From Candidatus Nitrospira neomarina (GTDB taxonomy: Bacteria > Nitrospirota > Nitrospiria > Nitrospirales > UBA8639), in the NCBI RefSeq assembly GCF_032051675.1, contig NZ_CP116968.1:3100001-3164000 (forward strand): 64,000 nucleotides of DNA. The letters are read 5' to 3'. A program made the position numbers and the translations under genes. Positions 23,516 through 42,248 of this stretch are shown here, piece after piece. Numbering within the stretch: the first letter of the stretch is position 1; the number at the start of each line of letters is the position of its first letter. The notes below the pieces were generated by a model. The model had not been told where the DNA came from and ran no database searches. It saw only the letters and a list, made by a program, of their open reading frames with translations.

Positions 23516-25081
23516 TCAGGGGGATTCGTAGACTTCATCACGCAAGTGGTTGACCTGAATGTTATGACGTTTGATTTTTTTGATGAGTCCCTGCCGGCTT
23601 AAGCCTAACCGTTTGGCCGTTTGGACCTGATTGAACCGGCAGGCCAACAAGGTCTCTTTGATCATGCGTTGCTCCAATTCATCGACGGCTTGATGGAGAC
23701 TCCGGCCTTTCATATCTATGGTGCCTCCGGTCGTTTGGACAGGGCATCGGATACCTTCTTCGAGCGCGTCCTCCTGTATCGTCGTGCCACGAACCATGAC
23801 CATTAATCGTTTGATTTCATTTTCTAACTGCCGGATATTTCCCGGCCAGGAATATTCCATGAATCGCTCCATAGCCTTGGCAGACAGTTTTTTCCTGGGT
23901 CGATCCATCTGCGAGCTATAGAGGTCCAGAAAATAATTGACGAGCAGGGGGATATCCGCCGGGATCTCCCGTAAAGCCGGCGTATGCACATGGACAACTT
24001 TGAGACGGTAGTAGAGATCGTCTCGAAACGTGCCGGCTTTAATAGCGGCTTCTAAATTTTTATTGGTGGCCGCAATGATTCTGATATCGAGGGGAACGGA
24101 CTCTCGCTTCCCCACCGGCTCAACGGCTCGCTCCTGCAGCACCCGTAAGACTTTGGCCTGGGCGCTTACGCCCAGATCTCCAATTTCATCCAAAAACAGC
24201 GTGCCCTTATTCGCCTGTTCAAATTTGCCGATTCTGGCCTCTACGTCCGTCGCCGTGCCTTTGCTGATGCCGAACAATTCACTTTCGATTAACGTCTCGG
24301 GGAGGGCGGCACAATTGATCGCGACAAACGGTTGACGGGCTCGCGGGCTATTGTAATGAATGGCTTTGGCCACCAATTCCTTTCCGGTTCCGTTTTCTCC
24401 GGTAATAAGCACATCCACTGAACTATCCCGGACCTGATCGATGATTCTGATCAGTCGCTGCATGGGCAGACTGTTTCCCATAAGCTTTTTCGTGGAGTAC
24501 TGTCCTTCGACCTCTTTCCACAAATGCGCGTTTTCCTGTTGCAACCGTTCGCGTTCCCGCCGCAATTGTTCCATCACATGGAATTTCTGAAGAGGGATAG
24601 CGATGCTATCAACCAACGTCTGAGCCGCCATTTCATCCTGGGCGGTAAAGTCCTTGCCCTTTTTATTCACGGCTTCAAAGACGCCGATGATGTCTCCGGT
24701 TCTGTCCCGAACCGGCAGCGCCAACAGGGTCTGCGTTTGCCGCTTCATTTGGGCGTCGATGCCGGAAAAAAATCTTGAGTCCGATTGCACATCTTTGACA
24801 TTGATCAACTCTCCCGTCGCCACACAGGCGCCCGCAATTCCTAAGCGCGCATCCAGGCGCAATACCCGCCCGCCCACAGGGAGGGGAAACCACAGCTCAC
24901 ATTCCTTCCGATCCAGAAGAAACACACTGATCCCCTCCGCCTGCAGGACCTGGCGTGATTCTTTTTCAATGAGTTGTAATAAGGTTTGTAATTCCTGCTC
25001 CTGGTTGATCTGAAGCAGAAATGTTTCAGGAAGGTCTATTCTCTTGTGAGGGATTGCTTCTTTTCCGGATCGACTCGCCAT
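23516..25081 (-). CDS. GAF / AAA+ / Fis-type regulator (NtrC-like) lacking the GAFTGA motif
   Basis: A 521-residue cytoplasmic regulator. A GAF sensor domain (about residues 20-170) is followed by a coiled linker and an AAA+ domain (about 195-435) with Walker A GENGTGKE, Walker B GTLFLDEIGDL and an arginine-finger region (RDDLYYRL). A C-terminal Fis-type HTH follows (AKRLGLSRQGLIKKIKR). In NtrC-family activators loop 1 carries GAFTGA, which touches sigma-54. Here the position after ESELFG reads ISKGTATDVEARIG, so the motif is replaced by GTATDV. It may therefore not remodel sigma-54 in the usual way. No receiver domain is present. The GAF domain resembles those of the two neighbouring GAF kinases, so a common ligand is possible. 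Start at 25081; an upstream extension exists. Confidence 0.88.
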   Translation of the reverse strand: MASRSGKEAIPHKRIDLPETFLLQINQEQELQTLLQLIEKESRQVLQAEGISVFLLDRKECELWFPLPVGGRVLRLDARLGIAGACVATGELINVKDVQSDSRFFSGIDAQMKRQTQTLLALPVRDRTGDIIGVFEAVNKKGKDFTAQDEMAAQTLVDSIAIPLQKFHVMEQLRRERERLQQENAHLWKEVEGQYSTKKLMGNSLPMQRLIRIIDQVRDSSVDVLITGENGTGKELVAKAIHYNSPRARQPFVAINCAALPETLIESELFGISKGTATDVEARIGKFEQANKGTLFLDEIGDLGVSAQAKVLRVLQERAVEPVGKRESVPLDIRIIAATNKNLEAAIKAGTFRDDLYYRLKVVHVHTPALREIPADIPLLVNYFLDLYSSQMDRPRKKLSAKAMERFMEYSWPGNIRQLENEIKRLMVMVRGTTIQEDALEEGIRCPVQTTGGTIDMKGRSLHQAVDELEQRMIKETLLACRFNQVQTAKRLGLSRQGLIKKIKRHNIQVNHLRDEVYESP

Positions 25082-25253
25082 GGCGGTGTTCCTGAAAATT
25101 CCGTTGACCCCACACCGCTGGACAGCAGGGAGCGTCAACTGTACACATTATGACCAGGTGTGAATGGAGAAGGCAACTACCCGCTCCGCGCGCCCTTTCT
25201 GTGTTCACCTGAGGAGGCTATCCTCTGGCCATCCAAAATCCCGGGCCCATGCC

Positions 25254-27224
25254 CTAGCCTCTGGCTTGTTCGATGGAGGTCACCGAACATGGTTCCGGAC
25301 TTCCCGTCTTCGTGAACAGCCGGTAAATGGAAATGCGGTTGGCTTTCCCCCTTAGCGTGATCACGCCGACCTCTTTGAGTCTCCATGGATGGTCCCCGAG
25401 GTATTGCTTGGTCGTCTCTCCAATCAGGATCCGGCAGACTTCATCTTTAGGCCAGGTCTCCAACGAGTCTTTTTGGAAACTTTCCAACCGAGAGGCAACA
25501 TTCACGGAATCTCCAATGGTCGTAAATTTCAACCGTTGTTCACTGCCCAGACTTCCGACGACCACCGGCCCCGTTTGAATGCCTATCCGCATCCGCACCT
25601 CCGGCAACCCCTGCTGCTGCCATTGAGTATTGAGGTGTCGCATTTCCTGTTCCAGAGCCACGGCACAACTGACTGCATTGTTGACATCCTCCCGCTTGTC
25701 GGCTTCCGTTTGTCCCAGCCGGAATACCCCGAAATCCGCTTTAATCATGTCTCCATGATAATCATCAACCATCCCACCATGGTTGGTGATGATTTTCACC
25801 ATGCGCTCCATGTAGGTATTGAGCCAGTCAAGTACCGTGTCGGGTTCCATGTTTTCTGCCACCGTCGTGAACCCTTCCAGATCCGTAAACAACGTCGTCA
25901 CCACCAGTTTTTGTGGGCGTAACCGGCCCTTTTCCAAAAATTGTTCCCGCTTCTCCCAAACAGCCTGGGCCACTTCTGAAGAGACATGCCGGGAAAAAAG
26001 CGACATCAGGAGCGCCCGGTCCTGCTTTTCCCGGTTCGAAAGCCAGGCTGTCACCACCATGGCATTGACCACCAATCCAATGACCGGCGGGATAAACGGG
26101 ATCCACGTCCCATACATCATCCCGTTCACCACCACTCCGCTTAGCAGCAGCATCCCCATGAGCACAGCCAGAGAGAAACGCCAGGCACCTCGAACCCACA
26201 CGCCGATGAATCCGCCCCCCAGCACCCATAGCCCGATCCAGGCTGTTTCCAGATTATCCGGAAATGTCGCAATGGGGGCCTGGCCCTCTCCCTTCGCTAA
26301 GCGGAGCAGTTGGTGCACCATATATCCATGCAATTCAAGTCCGGGAATTGGGGGACACACGGCGAGTGTTCCGCATTGTGAGGTATAAAAATAATCTTTG
26401 ACGCCTTGGGCAATAACCCCCACAAGCACAATGTGGTCCTGAAGCAGTTCCGGATTGAACGTTCCTTCCAGTATGGCTCCAAAGGAAATGGTCGGAAAGA
26501 CGTTCTTCCCCCGTTCAAGATCCAACAGATATTGATACCCCTGGGCATCGGCTTCCACATACCCCCCATCGTGCGCTTCGAAAGGGCGAATAACCGTTTT
26601 TCCAAGTTGCAACCAATTAGAATTCTCAACGGCCGGCTTGGGTACGATCTTCTCCTGCTGTAAATATTGGAGGGCCAGCAGCAAAGAAAATGACCGATAG
26701 AAATTGGTCCCATCATCCAGGAATAAGAGACCACGGCGAACGATCCCGTCGGAATCGACGACCACATCGTTAAACCCCACACGATCCGTGCCTTGCAACA
26801 TGGCCGGACCGGGAATACCCCCCTTCTCAATTTTTCCGAATTTCATGACCATCAGGATTTCCGGATGCGCCCCAAGTACCCGGTCCAATTCCTGTCGACC
26901 GGGCGGCACGTCCAAGTCCCGATAGATATCCACTCCGATCGCTCGAGGGTGATGTGCCGTCATGACGTCCAAGGCTCGCGCAAGGACTTCATCCGTTACC
27001 GGCCAACGCCCTAATGTTCGAATATCCTGGTCCGCCATCGACACCAGCGTAATCGGGGGGATCGGCCGTGTGTCGGTCGGACGAAGACGCATTGACCAAT
27101 CGTAGGCATCCAGTTCCGCGCTTTCCAGAAAGCCTTCCCACCGAAGACCCATCACACCCAGAAAAACCAGGAGGGTCATGATCCAGATTTGAAAGGCGGG
27201 AGAACGAAGAGGGGAATGGCCCAC
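25254..27224 (-). CDS. CHASE2-domain class III adenylate/guanylate cyclase (intact catalytic site)
   Basis: A 656-residue inner-membrane cyclase. A first TM helix (about 10-28) is followed by an extracytoplasmic CHASE2 sensor (about 30-310), with PITLVSMADQDIRTLGRWP and AIGVDIYRD. Three TM helices (about 325-400) and a cytoplasmic class III cyclase domain (about 435-610) come next. Both metal-binding aspartates are present (TLFTDLEGFT and DDYHGDMIKADF), as are IGDSVNVASRLE residues for base and transition-state binding. The lysine that selects adenine in many adenylate cyclases is Asp here, so the product (cAMP or cGMP) is uncertain. The GTG at 27224 is preferred because AAGGAG lies 6 nt upstream. 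It is paired with the GAF kinase upstream; the same pair recurs at 29039-32953. Confidence 0.9.
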   Translation of the reverse strand: MGHSPLRSPAFQIWIMTLLVFLGVMGLRWEGFLESAELDAYDWSMRLRPTDTRPIPPITLVSMADQDIRTLGRWPVTDEVLARALDVMTAHHPRAIGVDIYRDLDVPPGRQELDRVLGAHPEILMVMKFGKIEKGGIPGPAMLQGTDRVGFNDVVVDSDGIVRRGLLFLDDGTNFYRSFSLLLALQYLQQEKIVPKPAVENSNWLQLGKTVIRPFEAHDGGYVEADAQGYQYLLDLERGKNVFPTISFGAILEGTFNPELLQDHIVLVGVIAQGVKDYFYTSQCGTLAVCPPIPGLELHGYMVHQLLRLAKGEGQAPIATFPDNLETAWIGLWVLGGGFIGVWVRGAWRFSLAVLMGMLLLSGVVVNGMMYGTWIPFIPPVIGLVVNAMVVTAWLSNREKQDRALLMSLFSRHVSSEVAQAVWEKREQFLEKGRLRPQKLVVTTLFTDLEGFTTVAENMEPDTVLDWLNTYMERMVKIITNHGGMVDDYHGDMIKADFGVFRLGQTEADKREDVNNAVSCAVALEQEMRHLNTQWQQQGLPEVRMRIGIQTGPVVVGSLGSEQRLKFTTIGDSVNVASRLESFQKDSLETWPKDEVCRILIGETTKQYLGDHPWRLKEVGVITLRGKANRISIYRLFTKTGSPEPCSVTSIEQARG

Positions 27225-27381
27225 AGAGATCTCCTTCACAGCTCAGGCACGATATGAATGAACCGGAAAACGGGGAGATATCTGCTATATTTTGTTGGTC
27301 ACCACGAGCCAGTCCATGCTGAAGATGGTGCCATGAACAGGAAGAACATGGTTCACGCCTCGTACCCGTTTTCCAAAAGGT

Positions 27382-28662
27382 TTAAGAAGACACCTGATCC
27401 GAAGAAAACGTGGTCGGCACTTCCATGGGCAAATGAATGTGAAAAACGGTGCCTCTATCCACTTCACTCTCAACCGCAATGACTCCGGAATGCGCCTCGA
27501 TGACATCCTTGACAATTTTTGTTCCCAACCCCGTCCCACCCTGCTTCCGGCTTATCGCCCTGGCCGTGAATAACGTATCTCGAATTTCGGCGGGCATGCC
27601 ACGCCCGGTATCAATCACGGACACGTGAACCGTCTTTCCCATAGCCTCCATTTGTCCCGTTATCGTGATAGACCCGCCCTTGGGAACTTCGGAGATGGCG
27701 TTATTAACAAGGTTATAGAAGGCATTAAACAGCCGGGATTCATCGGCTTGCATCACCGGCAAGTCCAAAATTCCTTCATGAGCCAGAGAAATCCCTTTTT
27801 CTTGAGCGGTCAGCTTCAAGGTATCAAACACCGAAGCCACCACATGGTGAAGCTTACACGGGGCAAAGCGTGGAGGGCTCGTCAAACCCTTTACGCAATC
27901 GGCAATTTCTTTCACGCGCTCTTGAATCCGCTTAGCGTTATTGCCCACCATCCCAATGACTTCCAGGCATAATTCATAGCTCGCCCGGCCTTTGTCAGGA
28001 TCAAACGCCGGAAGATCGGCGAAGACGTCATTTATCTCATCCCTTAGGAGTGACGTCCCACACATGACCGGCATCAGCATATTTTTTACGTCATGCCCAA
28101 TGTCTCCCAGGATTCGGGCCACTTCCGCTAATTTGGCTTCCTGAAATAATCGCGCCTGCTCGATGGCCAGTGCCGTGAAAGCCCCGATGATCATTAAGAT
28201 GGCCACGTCGTCCTGATTTAACCTGTCCTCCCGCTTGTTCATCACCTCCAGGACTCCAATCGGATGGCCTTCCCATCGGTTCAGAGGAATGGCAATCAGG
28301 TCCCTGGTGTGGAATCCGCTCAGGTGATCGATTTTCTCGAAGTGACGCTGATCCTCCTTCACATCCTTAATCACCACAGGGTCTCCCGTGGCAAAAACCG
28401 AACCCGCAATGCCTTGCGTCCAGGGAAATGCCGTTCCGGGCTTGAGTGGCTGGTCACCAATTGAATGGTAGAACACCAATTCCTCCGTTTCCGGATTGGC
28501 CAACAACACGGAACCGGCTCGGCAGTTCACAACCTCCAAAGCTATCTTTAATCCCTGTTCCACCACATCTTCCACGCTGAGATGCTGAAAAAGCGCCTGG
28601 CTTATTCTCCGGGCGGCTTCAAGTTCCCGCTCTTTGCGATCCAATTGGTTCGAGGGATTCAT
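27382..28662 (-). CDS. GAF-domain sensor histidine kinase (copy 1)
   Basis: A 426-residue soluble kinase. A GAF domain (about residues 25-175: AGSVLLANPETEELVFYHSI, WTQGIAGSVFATGDPVVI, DLIAIPLNRW, IGVLEVMNKRE) is followed by a dimerisation/phosphoacceptor helix with His in LGDIGHDVKNMLMP. An HATPase_c domain follows, with the N box (FYNLVNNAISEVPKG), the G1 box (DTGRGMP) and the G2 box (GGTGLGTKIVKDVIEAHSG). No membrane span is present. It is paralogous to 31583-32953 and precedes a CHASE2 cyclase. No response regulator lies nearby, so its partner is unknown. CGGAG lies before the ATG. Confidence 0.9.
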   Translation of the reverse strand: MNPSNQLDRKERELEAARRISQALFQHLSVEDVVEQGLKIALEVVNCRAGSVLLANPETEELVFYHSIGDQPLKPGTAFPWTQGIAGSVFATGDPVVIKDVKEDQRHFEKIDHLSGFHTRDLIAIPLNRWEGHPIGVLEVMNKREDRLNQDDVAILMIIGAFTALAIEQARLFQEAKLAEVARILGDIGHDVKNMLMPVMCGTSLLRDEINDVFADLPAFDPDKGRASYELCLEVIGMVGNNAKRIQERVKEIADCVKGLTSPPRFAPCKLHHVVASVFDTLKLTAQEKGISLAHEGILDLPVMQADESRLFNAFYNLVNNAISEVPKGGSITITGQMEAMGKTVHVSVIDTGRGMPAEIRDTLFTARAISRKQGGTGLGTKIVKDVIEAHSGVIAVESEVDRGTVFHIHLPMEVPTTFSSDQVSS

Positions 28663-29038
28663 GTCTGGCTCCGAAATGATGTCAAGGTTGACCCAATTTT
28701 CACCATTAACCGAATCACATTTTGAGGGTTATTCGAAAAGGGTAACAAAATTTGAATAAAAAAGCTTATTGGGCCTTAAAGGAATCACATAAGAGGACGC
28801 GGTGTGTACCTGGCTTCAGTCGAACCTTCCCGGACTGGGTCCTGCACTCGCGGAGTCCGAATGAATACGAGTAAGGAATGCAGGCTCTTATCGTTGCCCC
28901 TTGAAACAGATTGGTGCTGGATCAGTTTGCGTCTGGATAGGATCCCGGATGACGTCAATTTTACCGATTTTGCGAAAAGCCTAAATAGGAGAGTTTTGAA
29001 ATACTTCTTACAATTCAGCATACCCAAAAATAAAGACA
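28663..29038. other. Intergenic gap between the two cyclase/kinase modules
   Basis: 376 bp without a gene I can support. Two overlapping frames on opposite strands (about 28785-29112) lack recognisable motifs or ribosome sites, and one runs into the end of the downstream cyclase gene. Part of this gap probably carries the promoter of the kinase gene ending at 27382. Confidence 0.4.
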
Positions 29039-31399
29039 TCAGATGCCCTGATTTTCAAGGGGATTTCCGGCCCCAGGGAAACGATTCGATCTGGAAAGGT
29101 CATCATCGTTGACACGAAGCGCATCCCAGGATAGGCCAGGGCTATAGTTCTCTAGTGTCACCACTTTATCCCATGGTTCAGAAGGTGGATTTTTGCGGTA
29201 CTGTTTACAGAGTTGAAGATAAAACTCCGAAGGTCCATCTCCCTCGACATGGTCAAGATACTGAGAAAACCATTCTCGTGCGACATTCCAATCCTGCATT
29301 CTAAATGCCCCGAGACCTTTGGCGAAGATCCGACTCGTGATCATTTGGTTTGGGTCAGCCTCCTCCAGGCGACTGATGAGTTCGTGGAGGACAAACGGCG
29401 GCTCATGGCCTTTTAGCTTAAATTGTCCAAGCTCTCTCAAGAGAAAGGGTGCTTCGAGTCCATGGACGACATCGCCCGTCGCGATGATGGTCGTTCCCAT
29501 ATACTTATTCAACCCTTCCACCCGGAAAGCCATATTCACAACCTCTCCGGCCGGACGGTACTCAGCATGATCGACCGCCCTCTCCGTACCGATGGTGACT
29601 TGCCCGCAATGCAACCCGATCCTTGTGTGAAGACTGTATGGCCCTACCTCTCGGTTATACCGATCAACCGATTTTGCAATATCCAAGGCTGCGAAACACG
29701 CTTGCTTTCTCAGCCCCGGCTGATCCAGGGTCGCTTTCCAGATCGCAAGAAACGAATGTCCTCTCAGATCGACGATGAGCCCACCGTGGTGGCGGACAGG
29801 CGTAAAGAGCGCGTTAAAGTATTTCCCGAGCAACACACGCAGTTCTTGAGGGTTCAGTTTTTCCGATAGGGTCGTGTAATCCGCGGCATCGGTAAACAGA
29901 CAGGTTCCATAGACGACATGAGGGCCACCCTTGAGATTGCCGAGATTCCGGGACAGCGCATCCACCACATCATTGGGCAGGTAGTCCCCAAAAACCTTGC
30001 GCATGTTCTTCCGCTCCTTTTCGGTCTTATAATAATTCCACAAGACCGCACTCCCGAGGGCCAATGGACCCTGCACGAACAACGGAATCACGAGGGGAGA
30101 CCACATAAAGGCGTTCTGAAATGCATAGGCGGCCCCCCCGAGATACATGAGACTTAAGACCAGGACTGTGCCGGCTGCCATGACCGTTGAAACCATCCGG
30201 CAAACTACCCCCACAAGCAGGCCCCAAGACAGGAGAATCAACACTTTGGCACGCAGGTTCATGGGTGTGACGGAAGAGTCCTCCAGCATGTTGGCAAGAG
30301 CGGTGGCGGCTATTTCCACCCCGCCAATAAAGACCCCATTCCCCTGGAACAACCCCGTGTAAAAACTTTCCTTTTTTCCCTCCGGCAAAATGTCGGAATG
30401 CCCCACAAAGACGACTTTGTCTTTGAGATTCCCTCGGGCACCCCTCGTAGCGTCGGGCCGGGAATCCATAACCTGATAATACGGAATGGTGAAAATGGTC
30501 TGTGAAGGTCCATAAAAATTGAGATAACGGCTGTGCTCGCCTCCGTAAACCTTGATCAGCGCCTTGAGCAGCTTGGAGTTCTTCGCAATGGTTGGTCCGG
30601 ATCCCGCATATCTGAGAGCCTTGAGCATATCTTCCGTCAAACGCGGATCGCTCTGAAAGAGTTCTCTGATATTCCGCACCAACTCCACCAGCCCTTTGCG
30701 TGTTCGTGCCGACTCAAAATCCTTGGGAAGGTGGCCGGTTAAGTTAGGGCGGACCTGCTCAAGGAGTTCAATAAACTGTTGGTAGAGGGGTGAAAAAAAC
30801 AATTGGAGTGCCAGAATGGGAAAGATTGGCGTTTCGCCAGCTCCTTGGTGAACCGTCCAATCCTGGTATACCTTAGCCGGGATTCTTGAAAGCACAAACG
30901 GTCCGGTTCCGGCGGCCGCTTCTTTAAAGGCTGCAAATGGCTTGGAGATTTTCACGATGCTATCGGCGTCAGGCCGGGCCTCGCCCATCATACTCATGGG
31001 AACGTCCCCGGCAATCACGGTATCCGCCAACACGACATTCCCTGCTCGTTGAATAGCTTGTACAAAATATCCATCCTCCTCCGGCGATCGGGCTTCCAGA
31101 AAATTCACGTCAAAGATTATGACTCTGGCTCCGGCTTGCACCAGCCGCTCCGTTAACCGTGCATAAAGAGTGCGAGGCCATTCATCGGGATTGTCCGGGA
31201 CGTTGAAGTGCGCTGAAGAGTCATGATCAAGACGAATGACCGCGACGTCAGTCGGTGGCGGCCTGATGCCTCGCAATTGAAACAAGAGGCCCAATCCCAC
31301 ATCTTCTTCAAGACTGCGAGAAAGCGGGACAACACTGAGGACAACTCCAACGATACCAATGAGCAGACCAAACAAACCGGCCTTTATGAGTTTGGCCAC
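29039..31399 (-). CDS. CHASE2-domain cyclase homologue with altered metal site
   Basis: A 786-residue inner-membrane protein. TM helix (about 7-25), CHASE2 sensor (about 30-385, VAVIRLDHDSS and VIIFDVNFLEA), three TM helices (about 390-455), and a cytoplasmic class III cyclase-type domain (about 495-690). The first metal aspartate is present (LFTDAADYT). The second, normally in a GD pair, is His (VDLRGHSFLAIW), and the adenine-side Asp is Glu (PAGEVVNMAFR). These changes predict weak or no cyclase activity, so it may act as a sensor or regulator of the neighbouring cyclase. A C-terminal extension (about 690-786) follows. The GTG start has GAGAGG upstream. It is paired with the GAF kinase at 31583-32953. 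Confidence 0.87.
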   Translation of the reverse strand: MAKLIKAGLFGLLIGIVGVVLSVVPLSRSLEEDVGLGLLFQLRGIRPPPTDVAVIRLDHDSSAHFNVPDNPDEWPRTLYARLTERLVQAGARVIIFDVNFLEARSPEEDGYFVQAIQRAGNVVLADTVIAGDVPMSMMGEARPDADSIVKISKPFAAFKEAAAGTGPFVLSRIPAKVYQDWTVHQGAGETPIFPILALQLFFSPLYQQFIELLEQVRPNLTGHLPKDFESARTRKGLVELVRNIRELFQSDPRLTEDMLKALRYAGSGPTIAKNSKLLKALIKVYGGEHSRYLNFYGPSQTIFTIPYYQVMDSRPDATRGARGNLKDKVVFVGHSDILPEGKKESFYTGLFQGNGVFIGGVEIAATALANMLEDSSVTPMNLRAKVLILLSWGLLVGVVCRMVSTVMAAGTVLVLSLMYLGGAAYAFQNAFMWSPLVIPLFVQGPLALGSAVLWNYYKTEKERKNMRKVFGDYLPNDVVDALSRNLGNLKGGPHVVYGTCLFTDAADYTTLSEKLNPQELRVLLGKYFNALFTPVRHHGGLIVDLRGHSFLAIWKATLDQPGLRKQACFAALDIAKSVDRYNREVGPYSLHTRIGLHCGQVTIGTERAVDHAEYRPAGEVVNMAFRVEGLNKYMGTTIIATGDVVHGLEAPFLLRELGQFKLKGHEPPFVLHELISRLEEADPNQMITSRIFAKGLGAFRMQDWNVAREWFSQYLDHVEGDGPSEFYLQLCKQYRKNPPSEPWDKVVTLENYSPGLSWDALRVNDDDLSRSNRFPGAGNPLENQGI

Positions 31400-31582
31400 G
31401 AATGCCTCTCATCTGATTCCGGGAATTTCATTCCTGAAGAAACCACCAGAACCGTCAGTACCCACTGCTCCATGTGGGGATTTCCGAACGACCTATCTCA
31501 TCAGCTTCATCCTCGTCGTCCCCTGAGAAGCCCACACCGAGCAACCCTCCTCAAAATAGAAGACCAGCCGTCGGGACAATTT

Positions 31583-32953
31583 TCACAATCTCGGTGGAGG
31601 AGGGTGAACAGGAAGATGCAGATAAAACGTGGTGCCCACACCCAGCTCACTTTCTACACCAATACGTCCTCCATGGGCATCCACCACATCTTTGACAATT
31701 TTGGTCCCCAGCCCCGTCCCTTCCTGCTTGGTGGTGATAGCCTCGGAGTGAAAAAGGCGATCCCGCACTTCGGGGCACATGCCACGGCCATTGTCCGAAA
31801 CAGTGACGAGAATCCCCTCTCCCGGATTAACCTCCTCTCCAGAAACCGAGATCAGGCCTCCTCCGGGAATCTCCGGAATGGCATTGCTGATGAGATTGTA
31901 AAAAGCGGTAAAGAGACGGTGTTCATCAGCTTCAATGACAGGGAGTGTGTCCAGATTGTCGGTTTCAAGAAGGACCGCGTGCTCCGCCGCATAGGTTTTT
32001 AGGGTTGCGAACACGGCCCTCACTACAGTGGAAATCTGGCAGGGGGCAAAATGGGGTGGACTCGTGACACCTTTGACTGCATCGGCAATTTCCCGCACGC
32101 GCCGTTGTATCCGCCTGGCATTGTTCACAATCATCCTGGTGAGTTCCTGACAGTTGGCATAACTCGTCTCAGCCCCTTTCATCTTGACGTCGATCCAATG
32201 AGAAAAACGTTCGTCCAATTCTTCCTCCAGTAATTGGGCCCCCGATAACACCGGCATCAACATATTCTTAATGTCATGACTGACATCACCCAACATTCGC
32301 ACGATGCCGGCGAGCTTCGCTTCCCGATACAGACGGGATTGCTCAATCGAGTTCGCGGCAAGGGCGGATACAATTGTCAGGATAGCCAGGTCTTCTTCAT
32401 CAAGAAGCGATTCGCGTTTATTCAGGACTTCCAACACACCGATAGGCTTTCCTTCCCATCGCTTTAAGGGCAGAGCGATCATATCCCGTGTGACGTGTTC
32501 GGTTAACACATCGATGGCTTCATAATGACGTTGATCCCGTTTGACATCCGGAATCACGATCGGCTGTCCCGAATGAAACACGGCCCCGGCAATCCCCTTG
32601 TCCCAAGGAATCGCGGTTCCTGCTTCCACCGGGCTGGCTCCAATGGAATGCCGGAACACGAGTTCCTCAGAATCCTGGCTGGCGAGAAGAATGGATCCGC
32701 TCTCCGCTCCAACAACCTCCAGAGCAGTGGTGAGTGTTTGTTCAACCAGCTCATCGGTGTGAAGATTCTGGAAAAGTACTTCCGTCATGCGGCTGGCCGC
32801 TTCCAACTCCCGATTGCGCTGTATCAATCGTCGGTCTTCTATCCGGCGAGGTTTTTTACGCCGGTCCGGAACCGACATCTGAAACGAGGAGGATTTGCAT
32901 TCTAATTCCACAGATGTTTCTCCCATGAGGTTGCGTGAGCCATCCCATCCCAT
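31583..32953 (-). CDS. GAF-domain sensor histidine kinase (copy 2)
   Basis: A 456-residue paralogue of the kinase at 27382-28662 with the same order: a short basic N-terminal segment (RRKKPRRIEDRRL), the GAF domain (about 55-205; SGSILLASQDSEELVFRHSI, WDKGIAGAVFHSGQPIVI), and the phosphoacceptor His in LGDVSHDIKNMLMPVLSGAQ. The ATPase domain has FYNLISNAIPEIPGG, DNGRGMCPEV and GTGLGTKIVKDVVDAHGG. It is soluble. An internal ATG (ten codons in) is an alternative start. It is the upstream member of a kinase plus CHASE2-cyclase pair. Phosphotransfer partners are not visible in the window. Confidence 0.9.
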   Translation of the reverse strand: MGWDGSRNLMGETSVELECKSSSFQMSVPDRRKKPRRIEDRRLIQRNRELEAASRMTEVLFQNLHTDELVEQTLTTALEVVGAESGSILLASQDSEELVFRHSIGASPVEAGTAIPWDKGIAGAVFHSGQPIVIPDVKRDQRHYEAIDVLTEHVTRDMIALPLKRWEGKPIGVLEVLNKRESLLDEEDLAILTIVSALAANSIEQSRLYREAKLAGIVRMLGDVSHDIKNMLMPVLSGAQLLEEELDERFSHWIDVKMKGAETSYANCQELTRMIVNNARRIQRRVREIADAVKGVTSPPHFAPCQISTVVRAVFATLKTYAAEHAVLLETDNLDTLPVIEADEHRLFTAFYNLISNAIPEIPGGGLISVSGEEVNPGEGILVTVSDNGRGMCPEVRDRLFHSEAITTKQEGTGLGTKIVKDVVDAHGGRIGVESELGVGTTFYLHLPVHPPPPRL

Positions 32954-33217
32954 ACAGACTACCTACATGATTCATAATCTTTCATACAGCCGGTCAATGC
33001 TGGTTTGTTTTCAAGTTGAAAACCATTGCCTCTCACCCCTTTGGCCTTCTTTTTCCTTTAACGACGGATGAATGGAAAAGCACTTTGATCACCGCAACGA
33101 AATTTTCAAGATTACGCATCTCCAAAGCATACAGCCATGAACAAAGAACATTGGGGTACCGGCTATTCCTCTTGGCTCCCTTCTTCAGCATCACTCACCG
33201 GATTGGACGACATATGG

Positions 33218-33352
33218 TTACACCAGCGCTTTTCCTTTTGCTGAAACGACCGTTTCCCGTCCGGTTAGAGAAAACGTTCTCTTATCCTTGGCGACCACAC
33301 CCTTCCCATCAAGGATGGTGATTGCCATTTGAGTGTTTTCGATTAGAGTCAA
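33218..33352 (-). pseudogene. Out-of-frame 3' remnant of the FecR-domain gene
   Basis: Directly after the stop of the FecR-like frame, another reading frame gives LTLIENTQMAITILDGKGVV and ends TVVSAKGKALV. In intact FecR-domain proteins of CHASE2-linked clusters a similar segment (T-x-V-x-V-L-x-G-x-V, ending in A-x-x-GKAPV) follows the part encoded upstream. The two frames together therefore look like one gene broken by a deletion and frameshift. The match is by eye only. Confidence 0.45.
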
Positions 33353-33744
33353 GCCTTCCCTAACGCGCGAATTCCACGGGTAAAAACATCGGTGGCACTT
33401 TCGATGAGGAAGACCGGAACTGTCTTTCCTTTTTGAAGTCCTCCCAGAGTGATGGTGGTGTTTTGATCCAACCGTAGTACCGCTCGATTGGCGAGGGCGA
33501 TATCCGCCCGGCTCCTATCACCTACCCGAATGCGATCCCCGGCACAGAAGAAATCGTCGAGGCTCACCGGCTGCCACTGCTCAACATTCACGCGGCGCAC
33601 CTCCACTTTGCCCTGAACGGACACGACAGTCGCCACAATCGGATTGCATTCCGGACCCCATGTGACCGGCGTGGTGAGCCCGACAGCCACGAAGCTGATG
33701 CACAGTAGCCAGGGGGCATAGACAGGGACCGCGTTCATGGTCAT
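33349..33744 (-). pseudogene. FecR-domain exported protein, truncated
   Basis: A 131-residue frame. A signal peptide (YAPWLLCISFVAVGLTTPVTW) is followed by a FecR-type beta domain with VVSVQGKVEVRR, FCAGDRIRVGDRSRADIAL and LRLDQNTTITLGG, the conserved pattern of this family. FecR-domain proteins linked to CHASE2 usually continue with a second half, often with TPRs. Here the frame stops after VFTRGIRALGKA, and related sequence continues in a different frame (33218-33352). It is probably an inactivated member of the cluster, although a short domain-only protein remains possible. The start has GGTGAAAT directly before the ATG. Confidence 0.65.
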
Positions 33745-33964
33745 ATTTCACCCATGTTTAGTGTATGGAGAAAGTGCGTTCTGTGTGCTCGTCTTTCGAT
33801 GTTTTGGCGAGCGGGAACCGGGAAATTTTGAGAATATCCATACAGTATTTCACTCCTCTTCTGCAGATTTTCTAGCAATGATCCCGGGGCTTGAATTCGG
33901 AGGCTTTGACAACACGAGGCGTCGAATGACGCGAGGGGAGAAAGCGTACGAAGGTTAGAGTACG

Positions 33965-34162
33965 TTACGGGTTCATGGTCCTGCCATTTGGATCTCCTTC
34001 TTTTTTTCTGACATTTCGTGCCGCCAAATCTTTGGTCTCAACACCGCGCCCTTTGTGGTTTTTGACATATTCTACTTCATCCACCCATTGTTCCCATGCT
34101 TTAAGAATACCTTTAAAGAGACGGATGATCTGTCGGTTAAAGATGACGGTTTCTTGTTGCAT
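33965..34162 (-). CDS. Small hypothetical protein
   Basis: A 65-residue charged protein starting MQQETVIFNRQIIRLFKGIL and ending in a basic tail. The ATG at 34162 has AAGGA about 10 nt upstream. A GTG seven codons earlier also keeps the frame open. No family is recognised. A CRP-like site lies about 335 bp upstream (34496-34511), and the rest of 33745-34987 has no other gene I can support. Confidence 0.4.
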   Translation of the reverse strand: MQQETVIFNRQIIRLFKGILKAWEQWVDEVEYVKNHKGRGVETKDLAARNVRKKEGDPNGRTMNP

Positions 34163-34495
34163 GGGCCAGGTTCCTTCACTCACATTTCTGCACGACGGGT
34201 GATCGAATCGTTCCTATGGCTCAACGACTTGATGAACCCTGTTTCTGAGGCTAGTGAGGAAGAGGGAATATTCGTGTTCCACACCTTCTACCACCTCAGA
34301 ATCCGACTCCTTTCGTCACGATTTTCTTGACGAAAGTAAGGAGCCAAACCCAGAGGCGGGTTCATTAGAAAGAGACGATTGCGTGTTTAGAAACACGAGC
34401 CGCAGCTGCTCGAGTCCACGTATGTCCCGACCCCCTAGAATCCCTTCTCATGGTTTGAGAGACCGTGACAGGGAAATAATTGGGGTTCATATTTT

Positions 34496-34511
34496 TGTGA
34501 TTTTGATCACG
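34496..34511. promoter_or_regulatory. CRP-like site
   Basis: TGTGA-TTTTGA-TCACG matches 9 of 10 positions of the CRP consensus TGTGA-N6-TCACA. It lies in a gene-poor stretch. The nearest gene reading away is the small frame at 33965-34162. Assignment to a promoter is uncertain. Confidence 0.45.
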
Positions 34512-34839
34512 TTAATTGTCATTATTGAGGCAACTTCAATACCATCCTTATGGTGGGTGCCCTTACGGATTTTCTTGAAGATAACCAATTGGCTGTAAAC
34601 GAATATTTCCGTTTCCAAACATTTCAACTATTGTTACGCCAGATCAGGCACCACGGAAGGGTATCCATTTGGATACATAATTTATCTATTTAGATACATG
34701 TCTTGGTTGAAGGCTGTTGGCCCAAGGTCAATCATTTCTGTCTAGGTATTGTCTTTTGGTCCGAATTTTCCATAGCCCCTCTCAAAATATTCAGATCAGG
34801 ACCGTTGGGTTACGATTCTTTTTCTGAGAGAGAAAACGA

Positions 34840-34875
34840 ACAATCCCAATGATCCAACACAGGCATTGGGATTGT
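34840..34875. repeat. 12-bp inverted repeat
   Basis: ACAATCCCAATG, a 12-nt spacer, then CATTGGGATTGT, perfectly complementary. Neither side has a clear T-run, so the role (operator or hairpin) is open. Confidence 0.5.
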
Positions 34876-34987
34876 TGGAGGCGTGGTCGGTTTGACTTAG
34901 GAAGGACCAACCAACGTCAATCGATTGTCTGAGAGGCGGGAAAGGAACGGGAAGAAGAGAAGAGCTAAAAGCAAAAGGGTATTGCCA

Positions 34988-35153
34988 GGAGTCTGTCGGA
35001 CTTTGGGAGCCGATAGGGAAAATGTGGCAAAGCGAGGCAGATGTTGACGATTTTGCCGGCTCATAGTGGGGTGAGACTAAGGGCCAGGGAGGCGGCGATA
35101 TATGGGCCGTCTAGGCACTTTTGCAGCGGATTCATCTAACTCCGACAGGCTCC
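34988..35153. repeat. MITE copy 3 (166 bp), abutting the phosphodiesterase gene
   Basis: Third copy of the element at 3990-4152, more diverged internally (a few extra bases in the central palindrome). The right end TCCGACAGGCTCC is followed by TA, while the left flank is CA. Its last base and the flanking TA form the TAG stop codon of the phosphodiesterase gene on the reverse strand. Confidence 0.82.
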
Positions 35154-35944
35154 TAGAAATTCACTTCCTGGCCTTCTGTCAATATCGTGACGTGAGGGAT
35201 ATCCAGATGGCGTATTTCATCAATGATTTGATCTCGTACGGTAGGCTTCATATGGTAGACGTATAAGGGCAGATCAGGTTTCCCGATTTTTCGGTATTCG
35301 TGGGCTAAAAGAGTTGGCGTGAGATGTTTACTTCGAGAAGCCATATCTTTCATTGAATCGGGAAAGGATACTTCAATAAAGACTCCTTTTAAATTTGGTA
35401 TTCGGGCCGCCTCTTGCCAGAGGGTTTCCGTCACATAGGTATCTCCACTATAAATCCAGGCCACCTCGTCATCCTGAATAATAAACCCTGCGGTTTCGAC
35501 GGTATGGTTAACGGGAATGGGGGTTACTCTCACCCTTCCAGGCAAGCGCCATTCGCGTTTGGGCTCCAATTCCTCGCCACGTAGCATGGCATATTGAGAT
35601 TTTGGAAGATGGAAGAAATTCGGAAATACCAAATCGTTAAAGACATGCTTCTGAAGTCCAACTAAAACCGAGGGTAAACTTGCTACCACGATTTGATGAT
35701 CCACCCGCCCCGACATATTATCGACAAGTGGGGGAATGCCCTTTACGTGATCTAAATGCAAGTGGGAAAGGAGGATATGTGTGATCCGTTTTTGCTCATC
35801 TAACGTGAGTCCTGATGCTAATGTTCCAGCATCAACCATCAATTCTTCATTAACCAAAAACCCCACGCTCCGACAAATATGCGGACTGGTCGGTCCATTC
35901 ACGAGCAGATCAGATCCATGGGCCCCCAATACCCGGATGTTCAC
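35153..35944 (-). CDS. Class II 3',5'-cyclic-nucleotide phosphodiesterase (metallo-beta-lactamase fold)
   Basis: About 263 residues, cytoplasmic. The zinc motif HLHLDHVKG sits near residue 62 and PVNHTVETAGFII near 150. YSGDTYVTETLW supplies the bridging Asp. The segment FIEVSFPDSMKDMASRSKHL then LTPTLLAHE is characteristic of class II (CpdP/PDE1-type) cyclic-nucleotide phosphodiesterases, which hydrolyse cAMP to AMP. The GTG at 35944 is preferred because AAGGGA lies about 6 nt upstream; an in-frame TTG lies eight codons before. Two perfect CRP sites lie about 190-230 bp upstream, between this gene and the CRP-type regulator, so feedback control by cAMP is likely. The stop codon is formed by a MITE end, so the original C-terminus may have differed. 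Confidence 0.85.
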   Translation of the reverse strand: MNIRVLGAHGSDLLVNGPTSPHICRSVGFLVNEELMVDAGTLASGLTLDEQKRITHILLSHLHLDHVKGIPPLVDNMSGRVDHQIVVASLPSVLVGLQKHVFNDLVFPNFFHLPKSQYAMLRGEELEPKREWRLPGRVRVTPIPVNHTVETAGFIIQDDEVAWIYSGDTYVTETLWQEAARIPNLKGVFIEVSFPDSMKDMASRSKHLTPTLLAHEYRKIGKPDLPLYVYHMKPTVRDQIIDEIRHLDIPHVTILTEGQEVNF

Positions 35945-36133
35945 AAAAAATCCCTTGCATGAGAGCAATGATCCATTCGCGTGCCTTCCTAGTGCGCCAT
36001 ATTCAAAAAAAAAGGCAGGGATGAGCGACCAATTTCAAGTCGTGGAATCCTAGGGGGTACCCACCTCTTCGATGGAAAGACAATCCGAGGATGTTTTCTA
36101 TTTTTTAATTTATCCCATTCCAGGCCTCCTGTC

Positions 36134-36149
36134 TGTGACATTCATCACA
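36134..36149. promoter_or_regulatory. CRP consensus site 1
   Basis: TGTGA-CATTCA-TCACA is a perfect match to TGTGA-N6-TCACA. It lies in the 288 bp between the crp-like gene and the phosphodiesterase gene (both on the reverse strand), upstream of the latter. Its centre is 23 bp from that of site 2, about two helical turns. Confidence 0.72.
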
Positions 36150-36156
36150 TTCTTGG

Positions 36157-36172
36157 TGTGATTCTCCTCACA
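36157..36172. promoter_or_regulatory. CRP consensus site 2
   Basis: TGTGA-TTCTCC-TCACA is a second perfect match, 8 bp after site 1. Two perfect sites in tandem are very unlikely by chance. The local regulator carries the R-E-x-x-x-R recognition pattern that reads TGTGA in E. coli CRP. Confidence 0.72.
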
Positions 36173-36232
36173 CTTCTTCAACGCCCTATTTTTTTTAAAT
36201 CATCAATAGCACCCAACCAAATTTGTTGGGCT

Positions 36233-36901
36233 TTATTCCCATAATCTATTGATATAGATCGTGTTTCGGGTAACCGTCAGACTTCCGTTTTCCTTGAGAG
36301 CCTTAAGGGTCCGACTCAAGGTTTCCCTGGAGCATCCTACCATGTTGGCTAATTCCTGGAAGGATGGGCGATTGGATATCACGAGTTGCCCATGAGTCTG
36401 AATTCCATCCTGAAACTCTGCTAAATCAAGAAGACAGCGACCCACACGCCCATACATATCAAACATCACGAGACTGCGAACTTGTTCGCTGACTTTTCGC
36501 AATCGTTGAGAAAGATTCCTGAGAATTTTCATGGAAATGTCTGGATGGTTTGTTAACAGTTTCTTCAATTCCTTTTGTCCCAATAAAAAAAATTCACTCG
36601 GCTCCGCTGTTATCACCGATGCAGATCGTGGAGCCGATTCAAGAATGGCCATCTCACCGAAAAAGTTCCCTGGACCTAAGTGCGAGAGGATAAATTCCTG
36701 CCCGTTTTTCCCGGTTAACAGCACCTTAACTTTGCCTGACAAAATAATGAACAACATTTCGCCTGAATCGCCTTCTTGAAATATCATATTTTTGTCAGGG
36801 AACTTTCGGCGACTCCCAGAATCGGCCAGCAGATTGAGTTCCTGATCCGCTAATTCGGAAAAGAGTGGGACATTTTTAATCGCTTGTTTGTACATCACCA
36901 T
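36233..36901 (-). CDS. CRP/FNR-family regulator of the cAMP-binding type
   Basis: A 222-residue transcription factor. The cyclic-nucleotide-binding beta-roll (about residues 10-115) has the phosphate-binding cassette FFGEMAILESAPRSASVI, with the Glu, Arg and Ser that contact cAMP in E. coli CRP. The C-helix SQRLRKVSEQV keeps the Ser at the second adenine-contact position (Thr to Val at the first). The winged HTH has SFQELANMVGCSRETLSRTL, whose R-E-T-x-x-R recognition helix matches the CRP class that binds TGTGA. FNR-type N-terminal cysteines are absent. Its probable targets are the two perfect sites just downstream and perhaps the palindrome before the tpsA operon. Its ligand could come from the CHASE2 cyclases. 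Confidence 0.88.
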   Translation of the reverse strand: MVMYKQAIKNVPLFSELADQELNLLADSGSRRKFPDKNMIFQEGDSGEMLFIILSGKVKVLLTGKNGQEFILSHLGPGNFFGEMAILESAPRSASVITAEPSEFFLLGQKELKKLLTNHPDISMKILRNLSQRLRKVSEQVRSLVMFDMYGRVGRCLLDLAEFQDGIQTHGQLVISNRPSFQELANMVGCSRETLSRTLKALKENGSLTVTRNTIYINRLWE

Positions 36902-38349: not shown

Positions 38350-38584
38350 GGAAGATTCAGGCTCTGGACAGGATTGCGGTGAACCAGGATTCTCAACCCA
38401 CGTGCATGAACCAGTGCGTGGCGAAAAGGAAAAATGGAACTTGACGGTAGCGACAGCGGTATTTCAAATCGCTAGAGCCGGGTGAAACGAAGGCTCCGGA
38501 AAGTATGTGTCAGTGCATAAGGAAAGCCAGCGGCCAAGAATGCCGCGGGCGATCTTCTTCAGAATCTGTTCAGAGGGCCTAGAA

Positions 38585-41500
38585 ATGACGTTCGAAGAGA
38601 TCCTGGATGCGACAATGCGTTTGCTTGAGAGTCGAAAGCGCATAACGTATGGGGCCCTCAAAAGACAATTCAGTCTCGATGATGAGTTTCTCGAGGACTT
38701 GAAGGCCGAACTCATCAAAGCTCGACGCGTCGCCGTTGATGAAGGCGGGGAAGTGCTGGTGTGGACCGGGAGGGATGACACAACGCCCAGCCCAATCACA
38801 GAACGGGGAAACATACCTAATCCTTCGCGAGAAGGTCAGGTCACCCACCAGGTTCGACCCTCTGCTCAGGCTGAAAGGCGCCAACTCACAGTGATGTTCT
38901 GTGATCTGGTGGGTTCAACGGCTCTGTCTGAACGGCTTGACCCCGAAGACCTGCGCGAAGTCATAGAAGCCTACCAGGAAACCTGTGACCACGTCATTCA
39001 AGGCTTTGAAGGAACAATCATGCAATTCCAGGGCGATGGGATTCTGGTGTACTTCGGGCATCCCATAGCGCACGAGGATGATGCACAACGGGGAATCCTC
39101 GCCGCTCTCGGAATCTTGAATGAGCTCCCGAATTTAAACAACCGCCTCTGGCAGGTTTGCGATGTTGAGCTGAGCTTGCGGGTTGGAATCCACACCGGCC
39201 TCGTTGTGGTGGGAGAAATGGGAAAAGCCGGGTGGCTGCAGACGATGGCCCTTGGGGAAACGCCCAACGTGGCGTCCCGCATCCAAAACCTGGCGGCCCC
39301 CAACACCATTGTGATTAGCGAGGCGACGCTGAAATTGGTCAAGGGCTTCTTCACCATCCACGCCCTTGGTGACTATCCCATCAAAGGGATTTCCCAACCC
39401 ATAAACCTCTGGCGCGTGCTGGGGAAAAGTGGCGTGAAAAGTCGTTTCGAGGCCGCGGGTAGCGGACTGACCCCTCTGGTGGGGCGGGAGAACGAGATTG
39501 AAGGGCTTCTCAAAGGGTGGGAGCGAGTTAAGGATGCCATTGGCCAGGTCGTCCTGGTGAAGGGAGAGGCCGGAATCGGCAAAACACGATTGGTGGAGGA
39601 GTTGAAAGACCGACTCAGGCACGAGAATCCCATGCGTCAGGAGTACCGGTGCTCCCCCTTCTACCAAAACACCGCCCTCTATCCAGTCACCAATCTATTG
39701 GGACAGTGGCTCCACCTCGAACAGGAAGATGCCGCGGATGCCAAACTTCGCAAACTGGAGAGAGCCCTCAATGGCCCTAAAAACGACCATCCCAAAGCGG
39801 AAGCCGTGGCGCTTCTGGCCAATCTTCTCTCGGTGCCACTGGACAAGAGATATCTCCCCCTAAATTTGACCCCCGAAACTCAGAGGCAGAGGACTCTCGA
39901 GGTCCTGCGGGATTTGCTCTTGGAGACCTCGCCTGGCCGACCAGGGCTCTTCCTCGTAGAAGACTTGCACTGGGTCGACCCCACGACGCTCGATTGGCTG
40001 ACCATGGTGATCAACCACGCCGCCACAGCAGGCGTGCTGGTCATCCTCACCTTTCGCCCTGATTTTGAGCCGCCGTGGGCCGACCAACCCAACGTGGAGA
40101 AAATCTCGCTGAATCGGTTGAACGGCATACAGGTCGGGGCCGTGGTCCAGGGAGTGACAGGCGGCAAGCCGTTGCCTCGGGAGATTACGGAGCAGGTCGT
40201 CAGCCGGACCGACGGCGTGCCGCTGTTCGTGGAGGAACTCACCAAATCATTACTGGAATCAGGACTACTCCGCCAGGGGGAACATGAATATGAGCTCGTA
40301 GGATCACTGCCTTCAATGACGATCCCGGCCACCCTTCAAGACTCGTTAATGGCCCGGTTAGACAGACTCGCGACCGCGAAACCGGTGGCCCAGCTGGGCG
40401 CGACCCTGGGCCGAGAGTTCAGCTATGAGCTCCTTCACGCAGTGTCCCCGCTCGGGGAGACCACGTTGCAGCATGAGCTGACACGACTGGAAGAAGCCGA
40501 ACTCGTGTATCGGCAGGGTCTGCTCCCTCAGGCCACATACATGTTCAAGCACGCCTTGATCCAGGAAGTCGCGTACGAGTCGTTATTGAAAAGCGCGAGA
40601 CGAGAAGTCCACCATCACATCGCCGAGGTCCTGGAAAATCGGTTTCCATCCACGGCCGAGTCCGAACCCGAGCTTTTAGCCCATCACTATACCAAGGCGG
40701 CGCGCCCTGACCGGGCGATTCCGTACTGGCAGCAGGCGGGGCAACGGGCCCTGAAACGTTCCGCCAACCCGGAAGCCATTTCGCATCTGACACAGGGCCT
40801 GACGCTCCTCCAAACACTACCCGAAGGCCCCGAGCGCGACCAGAAGGAGTTAGCGATGCAACTCGGCCTCAGCCCGGCCTACATGATCACGAAAGGATGG
40901 GGAGCGGTGGAAGTCGAACAATGCTCCAAACGGGCCCAAGTTCTAAGCCAAAAGTTAGGAGACGGCCAGAGTCTCTATGCGTCGACATGGGGTTTGTGCT
41001 TTAACTATTTCTTGCGTGGACAGTTAAATGATTCCTTGAAAACGGCGGAAGAGGTTTTCCGGATGGCGTATGCAACCGATAACCCCGTTTTGCACGTAGG
41101 GGCGCATCATGCGGTCGGCTACTCCTACCAATATCGGGGAGATTTCACAAAATCGCGGGAGCATGCGGAGAAGGGTATAGCCCTGTTTAACCTTGATCAG
41201 GAGCGAGCCATTGTCGATTTGTTTCAGTTGTCTTCTACGGTGCCATTGCACTCATTCTTAGGCGGCGGCAAATGGATGCTGGGCTATCCGGAACAGGGCT
41301 TGGCGCATATCGGACAGGCAGTAGCCCTCGCTCAGACGCTCCAACATCCCCCTAGTATCGCCTTCGCCTATGGCACTGGATGCTTTGCCTACCATTCCGC
41401 CCGTGACTTTGAGTGGGTGGAGCATGCATCAGCCAAAGTGCTGGAGCTGGCCGAAAAGGAGGTGTTTCAACTGTGGGATACGATCGCCCTGACATACCAC

Positions 41501-42073: not shown

Positions 42074-42135
42074 ACTAAGATGGACTGCGAGAGCCTGTCG
42101 AGTCAACGGACCTTCGGGGAGAAGAGGAGAGGGTG

Positions 42136-42246
42136 ATGCGTCCCAACCACGAGGGGCTCACACTAAGGTATGACACAGAAGACACCCTCGCGCCTGAGGG
42201 TGCACGGGGTATTTCCGCGAAACCTTATTTTGTTCAGAAGGCCTAG
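42136..42246 (+). pseudogene. 36-codon remnant of the DUF3237-protein gene
   Basis: Between the two cyclase-AAA-TPR genes a short frame reads MRPNHEGLTLRYDTEDTLAP and then EG, matching the first 22 residues of the gene at 45797 (MRYNHEGLTLWYGTEDTPAP then EG). After that it diverges and stops. The preceding ribosome region is also alike in both places. It marks the junction of a tandem duplication in which the second gene of the first unit was lost. Confidence 0.8.
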
Positions 42247-42248
42247 AT

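Follow-up and report, generated by a model that had tools for sequence, protein, structure and literature searches.

A CRP-type regulator and tandem CRP boxes beside a class II-like phosphodiesterase gene in Candidatus Nitrospira neomarina: a candidate feedback loop

The locus in this report lies in Candidatus Nitrospira neomarina, whose genome is a single contig of 4,796,525 bases. The window, meaning the whole stretch of 64,000 nucleotides that was analyzed, covers positions 3100001 to 3164000 of it, and all positions below count from its first base unless another locus is named. Cultured marine nitrite oxidizers have been described in the Nitrospirales, two of them with closed genomes, with sizes of 4 to 4.8 Mb (PMC10579370). 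The features that matter here are as follows.

23516 to 25138, minus strand: GAF-AAA-Fis (NtrC-like) sigma-54 activator, kept with the phosphodiesterase (PDE) gene in relatives (Pfam, synteny)
25254 to 27239, minus strand: CHASE2 cyclase 1, with both metal Asp, Thr, Asn and Arg, and Asp in place of the purine-selecting Lys (Pfam, alignment)
27382 to 28662, minus strand: HK1, GAF-histidine-kinase-like, beside the PDE and cyclase 1 in relatives (Pfam, synteny)
29039 to 31399, minus strand: CHASE2 cyclase 2, with its second metal Asp replaced by His (Pfam, alignment)
35153 to 35944, minus strand: class II-like metallo-beta-lactamase-fold PDE, 263 aa, with an SHLHLDH motif (Pfam, alignment, PDB match)
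36107 to 36135, minus strand: predicted promoter, with a -35-like CAGACA (36130-36135), a 17-base spacer and a -10-like TAAATT (36107-36112) (positional scan, 8 loci)
36134 to 36149, minus strand: proximal CRP box TGTGATGAATGTCACA, centered about -41.5 from the predicted start site; core present in every one of the 11 loci that have an intact adjacent crp
36157 to 36172, minus strand: distal CRP box TGTGAGGAGAATCACA, centered about -64.5 from the predicted start site (sequence scan)
36233 to 36901, minus strand: CRP-type regulator, 222 aa, with cNMP_binding and Crp helix-turn-helix domains (Pfam; 11 intact orthologs aligned)

The regulator has a GE...RSA cassette in its cNMP-binding domain and an R-E-T-x-x-R motif in its Crp helix-turn-helix (Pfam, alignment). 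E83 and the R92-S93-A94 cassette are invariant in all 11 intact orthologs, as are R192, E193 and R197 of the recognition helix, and T194 is present in all except one. An R-E-T-x-x-R recognition helix corresponds to TGTGA/TCACA, as in E. coli CRP, in which a Thr-Ser pair of the C-helix, including the Ser position, contacts the cAMP base. The window protein has Val-Ser there, and the second position is S in 6 orthologs, N in 2, T in 1 and D in 2. The RSA, the C-helix Ser and the R-E-T-x-x-R motif that the earlier note describes are all present in the window protein, but the Ser is found in only 6 of the 11 intact orthologs. The best NCBIfam family is PRK11753, at 144.7 bits with a cut-off of 266, which is below the level of an E. 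coli-type equivalog. The genome has four cNMP-binding-domain matches. Three CRP/FNR-type proteins were read, the fourth match (a 695-aa frame) being left out of the comparison, and the combination of RSA and R-E-T-x-x-R was found in the window CRP alone; the other two, as translated, are without RSA and have a different recognition helix. In G019 and G009 crp is broken by stops and deletions (L188, 16938-17533, and L203, 1779-2245), and the PDE gene stays open in both, a case of repeated regulator loss.

The PDE open reading frame spans 35153-35968, with a GTG at 35944 the more likely start, from which relatives also align. It scores 54.5 bits against Lactamase_B_2 and 47.2 bits against PDEase_II (cut-off, 23.7), its best PDB sequence match is PDE1, and no second PDEase_II protein was found in the genome. 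SHLHLDH is invariant in 18 of 18 aligned rows. The proposed class II assignment is thus borne out by the PDEase_II cut-off and the HXHLDH motif, with catalysis putative. The structure predicted for the PDE, which has a mean pLDDT of 68.6 and low values near the loops of the active site, is similar to YhfI, PhnP, Apyc1 and RNase Z. We rejected ribonuclease Z as an identity, the NCBIfam RNase_Z score being 42.3 bits against a cut-off of 292.95; three other loci in the genome score better on that model, the best at 114.2 bits. A named collection holds relatives of the PDE at 52% identity or more in at least 17 loci, the other 57 of the 74 matches listed being short or of low identity, and the close relatives among the matches listed are from Nitrospirales or other Nitrospirota.

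Between the PDE gene and a FecR-like gene (33745-35152) there is a long leader with stretches conserved in eight relatives, e.g., TGGTATTGAAGTTGCCT, and with a small open reading frame of about 65 aa (beginning MQQETVIFNRQIIR) that is open in 4 of the 6 genomes where it was found. A leader RNA or a small gene may lie here. The FecR-like frame itself (33349-33744) ends early compared to G001, G018, G007 and G019, where the frame continues, and the gene may be truncated in the window genome.

Both CHASE2 proteins match Pfam CHASE2 and Guanylate_cyc. The two metal Asp, the Thr, and the transition-state Asn and Arg of cyclase 1 are kept in all 14 orthologous rows (a distant G012 row was dropped), and all 14 have Asp at the purine-selecting position, where the aligned residue is Lys in CyaB and Glu in 2W01. 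The adenine-selecting Lys of class III adenylate cyclases is thus absent; guanylate cyclases are usually marked by Glu at this position (PMC4886424). In cyclase 2 the place of the second metal Asp is taken by His in the window and by Asn in G001, the other rows having Asp; the first metal Asp is Glu in G001, and the purine-selecting position aligns with Asp. This protein is probably catalytically inactive. Two CHASE2 cyclase-type proteins are present as previously described, therefore, but one is without a metal Asp and the other without the adenine-selecting Lys. Four of the five class III cyclase domains of the genome lie in the window, those at 38879-39394 and 42543-43058 being additional to the two of the earlier note, and the purine-selecting residues of the five are D, D, Q, Q and R (columns read by eye; the fifth is a fragment). 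Since none is Lys, the sequence singles out neither cAMP nor cGMP. Two adjacent, closely similar cyclase-AAA-TPR proteins occupy 38507-45707, by their look a tandem duplication, and have Gln at that position; in G007 one copy lies across crp, on its other side.

We compared the locus across a genus set of 20 genomes, 17 of which have the PDE (genomes and loci are given by our own G and L designations). The PDE and cyclase 1 genes share one neighborhood across relatives, including those that have no crp. The order is PDE, HK1, cyclase 1, NtrC-like in a crp-less copy in G017; PDE, cyclase 1, NtrC-like in G010 and L122; and PDE, HK1, NtrC-like in G012. In G015 the PDE and HK1 are followed by a cyclase 1 gene cut at the contig end. 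In G013 and in the crp-linked copy of G017, the crp-PDE pair faces cyclase 1-HK1. A strict module is weakened by G005 (93% complete), in which crp and the PDE gene are intact and no class III cyclase hit was obtained, and by G011, G006 and G009, in which the only class III cyclase hit is a cyclase 2-like one. The co-location of synthesis, sensing and breakdown thus survives as synteny of the PDE and cyclase 1, and is reduced by the probable inactivity of cyclase 2 and the lack of a class III cyclase hit in G005.

As the earlier note had reported, two perfect TGTGA-N6-TCACA sites lie upstream of the PDE gene, at 36134-36149 and 36157-36172; they are spaced 23 bp apart in the crp-PDE intergenic region. 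Five perfect boxes occur in the genome, and two of them are these. As a pair the two boxes are unusual. The tandem core pattern GTGA-N6-TCAC-N9-GTGA-N6-TCAC occurs once in the window genome and in 10 of the 48 family genomes scanned, one each, and the reversed pattern, used as a control, in 0 of 48. Six of the 10 genomes are in the genus, and in all six the pattern is in front of the PDE gene. Outside the genus the pattern does not mark PDE genes: within 1.5 kb of its four hits in other genera, no PDE-like open reading frame was recognized by eye. In those four genomes (L102-L105, 1501-1537 each) the only tandem pair is near response-regulator-like frames, again by eye, and is perhaps a target of another CRP-type regulator.

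The presence of a box follows the presence of crp. The co-occurrence set was made up of 18 usable PDE loci of the genus plus L122 and L128 from the named collection, whose flanks were searched for crp over about 7 kb only; L032 to L035, broken further PDE copies in G010 and G013, are omitted from the count. Next to the PDE, crp is intact in 11 loci, broken in 3 (G006, G009 and G019) and absent from 6 (G010, G012, G015, one G017 copy, L122 and L128); the frameshift in G006 may be an error, because its contig has low coverage. All 11 loci with an intact crp and all 3 with a broken one have the core GTGA-N6-TCAC within 450 bases upstream of the PDE; none of the 6 crp-less loci has it. G017 carries both kinds of locus, and its crp-linked copy has the box and its crp-less copy has none. 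Fisher's test for 11 of 11 versus 0 of 6 gives 8e-5, for loci that are related by descent. The PDE tree holds three supported independent pairs that all go in the same direction, and these are not significant by themselves, since p is 0.25 at that number.

The distal box is less conserved across loci than the proximal one. Both boxes have full cores in 5 of the 11 intact loci (G000, G018, G008, G007 and G016); the distal box is degraded in G001 and G005, and the proximal box stands alone in G004, G011, G013 and the G017 copy. The proximal box is still kept in G009 and G019, where crp is broken, and also in G006. Among five close-clade genomes with intact crp, 1 of 100 cells departs from the majority at the 20 contact positions of both boxes, compared to 152 of 1,120 cells in flanking intergenic columns of the close clade (p = 2.4e-5, from cells that are not independent). 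The corresponding count for the three genomes with broken crp is 4 of 60 (p = 0.066 versus intact, with the same dependence among cells), a difference that is only suggestive.

A promoter could be placed relative to the proximal box. For 8 of the 11 intact loci, with G001, G018 and G008 omitted as near copies of G000, we added up the matches to TTGACA-N17-TATAAT at each of 67 offsets from the center of this box. The best offset, at which the first -10 base is 29.5 bp away from the box center, had a mean of 7.75 of 12 matches, against 3.40 (sd, 0.97) for all 67 offsets; the -10 hexamer of G016 and G011 lies a single base farther along. The start site of the PDE transcript is accordingly predicted near 36100. 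An ordinary promoter scan of the PDE upstream region found nothing, which is compatible with an activator-dependent promoter. A scan of the minus strand found no terminator-like site between crp and the PDE gene, and read-through from crp into the PDE is therefore possible.

The tie between box and crp (11 of 11 versus 0 of 6), the conservation of the contacts and the fixed promoter geometry all support one part of the feedback claimed earlier, namely, that CRP acts on the PDE gene, and we consider it likely that the window CRP regulates its neighbor. At class II promoters activated by CRP, the CRP site is centered at -41.5. The spacing of the proximal box from the predicted start site agrees with this geometry, so activation, and hence negative feedback, is the likeliest sign and the best single reading. 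The same binding could have the opposite sign, with CRP covering the -35 region and repressing the PDE to give positive feedback and a switch-like circuit. The proximal box does overlap the -35-like hexamer, and some relatives have a fairly good version of that hexamer (CTGACA, G016 and G011); however, the window hexamers CAGACA and TAAATT each match the consensus at 4 of 6 positions only, the ordinary scan found no promoter, as expected of an activator-dependent one, and the spacing is that of class II activation. Repression is accordingly unlikely.

The reading that we favor, with a probability of about 0.62, is that nucleotide-bound CRP activates the PDE gene through the two boxes and that the PDE destroys the nucleotide, closing a negative feedback loop. 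A cyclic nucleotide, cAMP or cGMP, would switch on the regulator, which would then bind the two adjacent boxes before the neighboring PDE gene, and the proximal dimer, at about -41.5, would recruit RNA polymerase to a weak promoter by class II activation. A rise in the nucleotide would thus yield more of the enzyme that destroys it, and the loop would limit itself. The main source of the nucleotide would likely be cyclase 1, which shares its neighborhood with the PDE, HK1 and the NtrC-like activator; cyclase 2 is probably inactive. The boxes, the tie to crp, the promoter geometry and the synteny come from comparison of genomes; the ligand, the substrate, the sign and the start site are what we infer around them.

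CRP might control the PDE while the enzyme acts on something else, such as 2',3'-cyclic nucleotides, RNA ends or another phosphodiester, in which case no ligand feedback would result. There is a precedent in Sinorhizobium meliloti, where a CHASE2 cyclase (CyaD1), the regulator Clr, a FecR-domain gene and a PDE gene (SpdA) share one locus (PMC4222275, PMC5498481, PMC13001267), and SpdA cleaves 2',3'-cNMPs and not 3',5'-cAMP (PMC4222275). The best structural matches of the PDE model are likewise mixed. On the other side, the PDE passes the class II cut-off and has PDE1 as its best PDB sequence match, and its gene lies next to that of cyclase 1 even in relatives without crp, and we judge a different substrate to be less likely still than repression.

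The regulon appears to be small. Perfect boxes outside the PDE promoter, counted by eye, number 31 in the 11 genomes with intact crp (among which G017, with both kinds of PDE copy, was placed), 8 in the 3 with broken crp and 20 in the 6 without PDE-adjacent crp or without the PDE. They are no commoner in genomes with crp, and a large CRP regulon was rejected; the regulator may therefore be nearly private to the PDE. The suggested genome scan for TGTGA-N6-TCACA thus returned the pair at the PDE gene with no excess elsewhere that is tied to crp. Of the other three perfect boxes of the genome, one is within an open reading frame, one overlaps the first codons of a frame, and one separates two genes at their 3' ends. 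The perfect box in that last kind of position, TGTGATGGGTCTCACA (L207, about 4164; genome position 3388163), is identical in G000, G001, G007, G008 and G012, of which G012 has no crp ortholog, and is conserved for some other reason. A third box near the locus (34496-34511, one mismatch) was considered as a CRP site serving the FecR-HK2-cyclase 2 genes and rejected, because leader stretches are equally conserved and G018, G008, G007 and G009 depart from it. There is no good sign in these sequences that the regulator controls the cyclase genes.

That the boxes arose by chance or belong to another regulator is highly improbable: the window has four boxes with no more than one mismatch, a count reached by 15 of 100 shuffles and so not unusual, and perfect boxes occur also in genomes without crp, but conservation, co-occurrence with crp and fixed geometry argue against chance, and the different recognition helices of both other translated CRP/FNR-type proteins against another regulator.

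Feedback loops between CRP and a PDE, and loci that combine CHASE2, CRP and PDE genes, are already known, from Vfr-cpdA and from Sinorhizobium, and the present locus would be another variant in a new lineage. In Pseudomonas aeruginosa the CRP homolog Vfr directly activates the cAMP phosphodiesterase gene cpdA (PMC13001225). The two systems share a CRP-type regulator with a site at a cyclic-nucleotide PDE gene and negative feedback, here as proposed; CpdA, however, is a class III PDE (PMC4222275), whereas the Nitrospirota enzyme has a class II-like metallo-beta-lactamase fold, and here crp adjoins the PDE gene, a CHASE2 cyclase is in the neighborhood and the host is one of the Nitrospirota. The Sinorhizobium locus is similar in gene content, with CHASE2 cyclase, CRP-type regulator, PDE and FecR-domain genes together in both, and differs in that SpdA, a class III enzyme, acts on 2',3'-cNMPs and does not depend on Clr (PMC4222275, PMC5498481, PMC13001267), and in that the Clr box is TGTT-N8-AACA rather than the TGTGA-N6-TCACA found at the PDE gene in the Nitrospira window. 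A Clr-independent enzyme with another substrate makes co-location alone a poor guide to function; the Nitrospirales case carries added weight through the promoter geometry and the way in which the box goes with crp. The class II and atypical class II enzymes PDE1, CpdP and Rv1339 have in common with the window PDE the metallo-beta-lactamase fold and the [T/S]HXHXDH / HXHLDH motif (PMC9293780), and it matches both PF02112 and PF12706; compared to them it forms a Nitrospirota subfamily of putative activity. Searches of the open-licence literature returned nothing in which Nitrospira or Nitrospirota is brought together with terms for CRP, CHASE2 or cyclic-nucleotide phosphodiesterases.

More tentatively, and on balance doubtful as a whole, there could be a nearly private loop in these Nitrospirales, possibly marine nitrite oxidizers, with the PDE as the only conserved target of CRP in the genus and with a supply from a CHASE2 cyclase that has Asp for Lys and may make cGMP. 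If so, it would be a self-resetting or insulating module and not a global catabolite regulator. The locus raises the question of which purine nucleotide CHASE2 cyclases produce when they carry Asp for Lys. If the loop is real, it would provide a compact, testable receptor-enzyme pair in mostly uncultured bacteria, with the relatives that lost crp, the boxes or both as natural controls.
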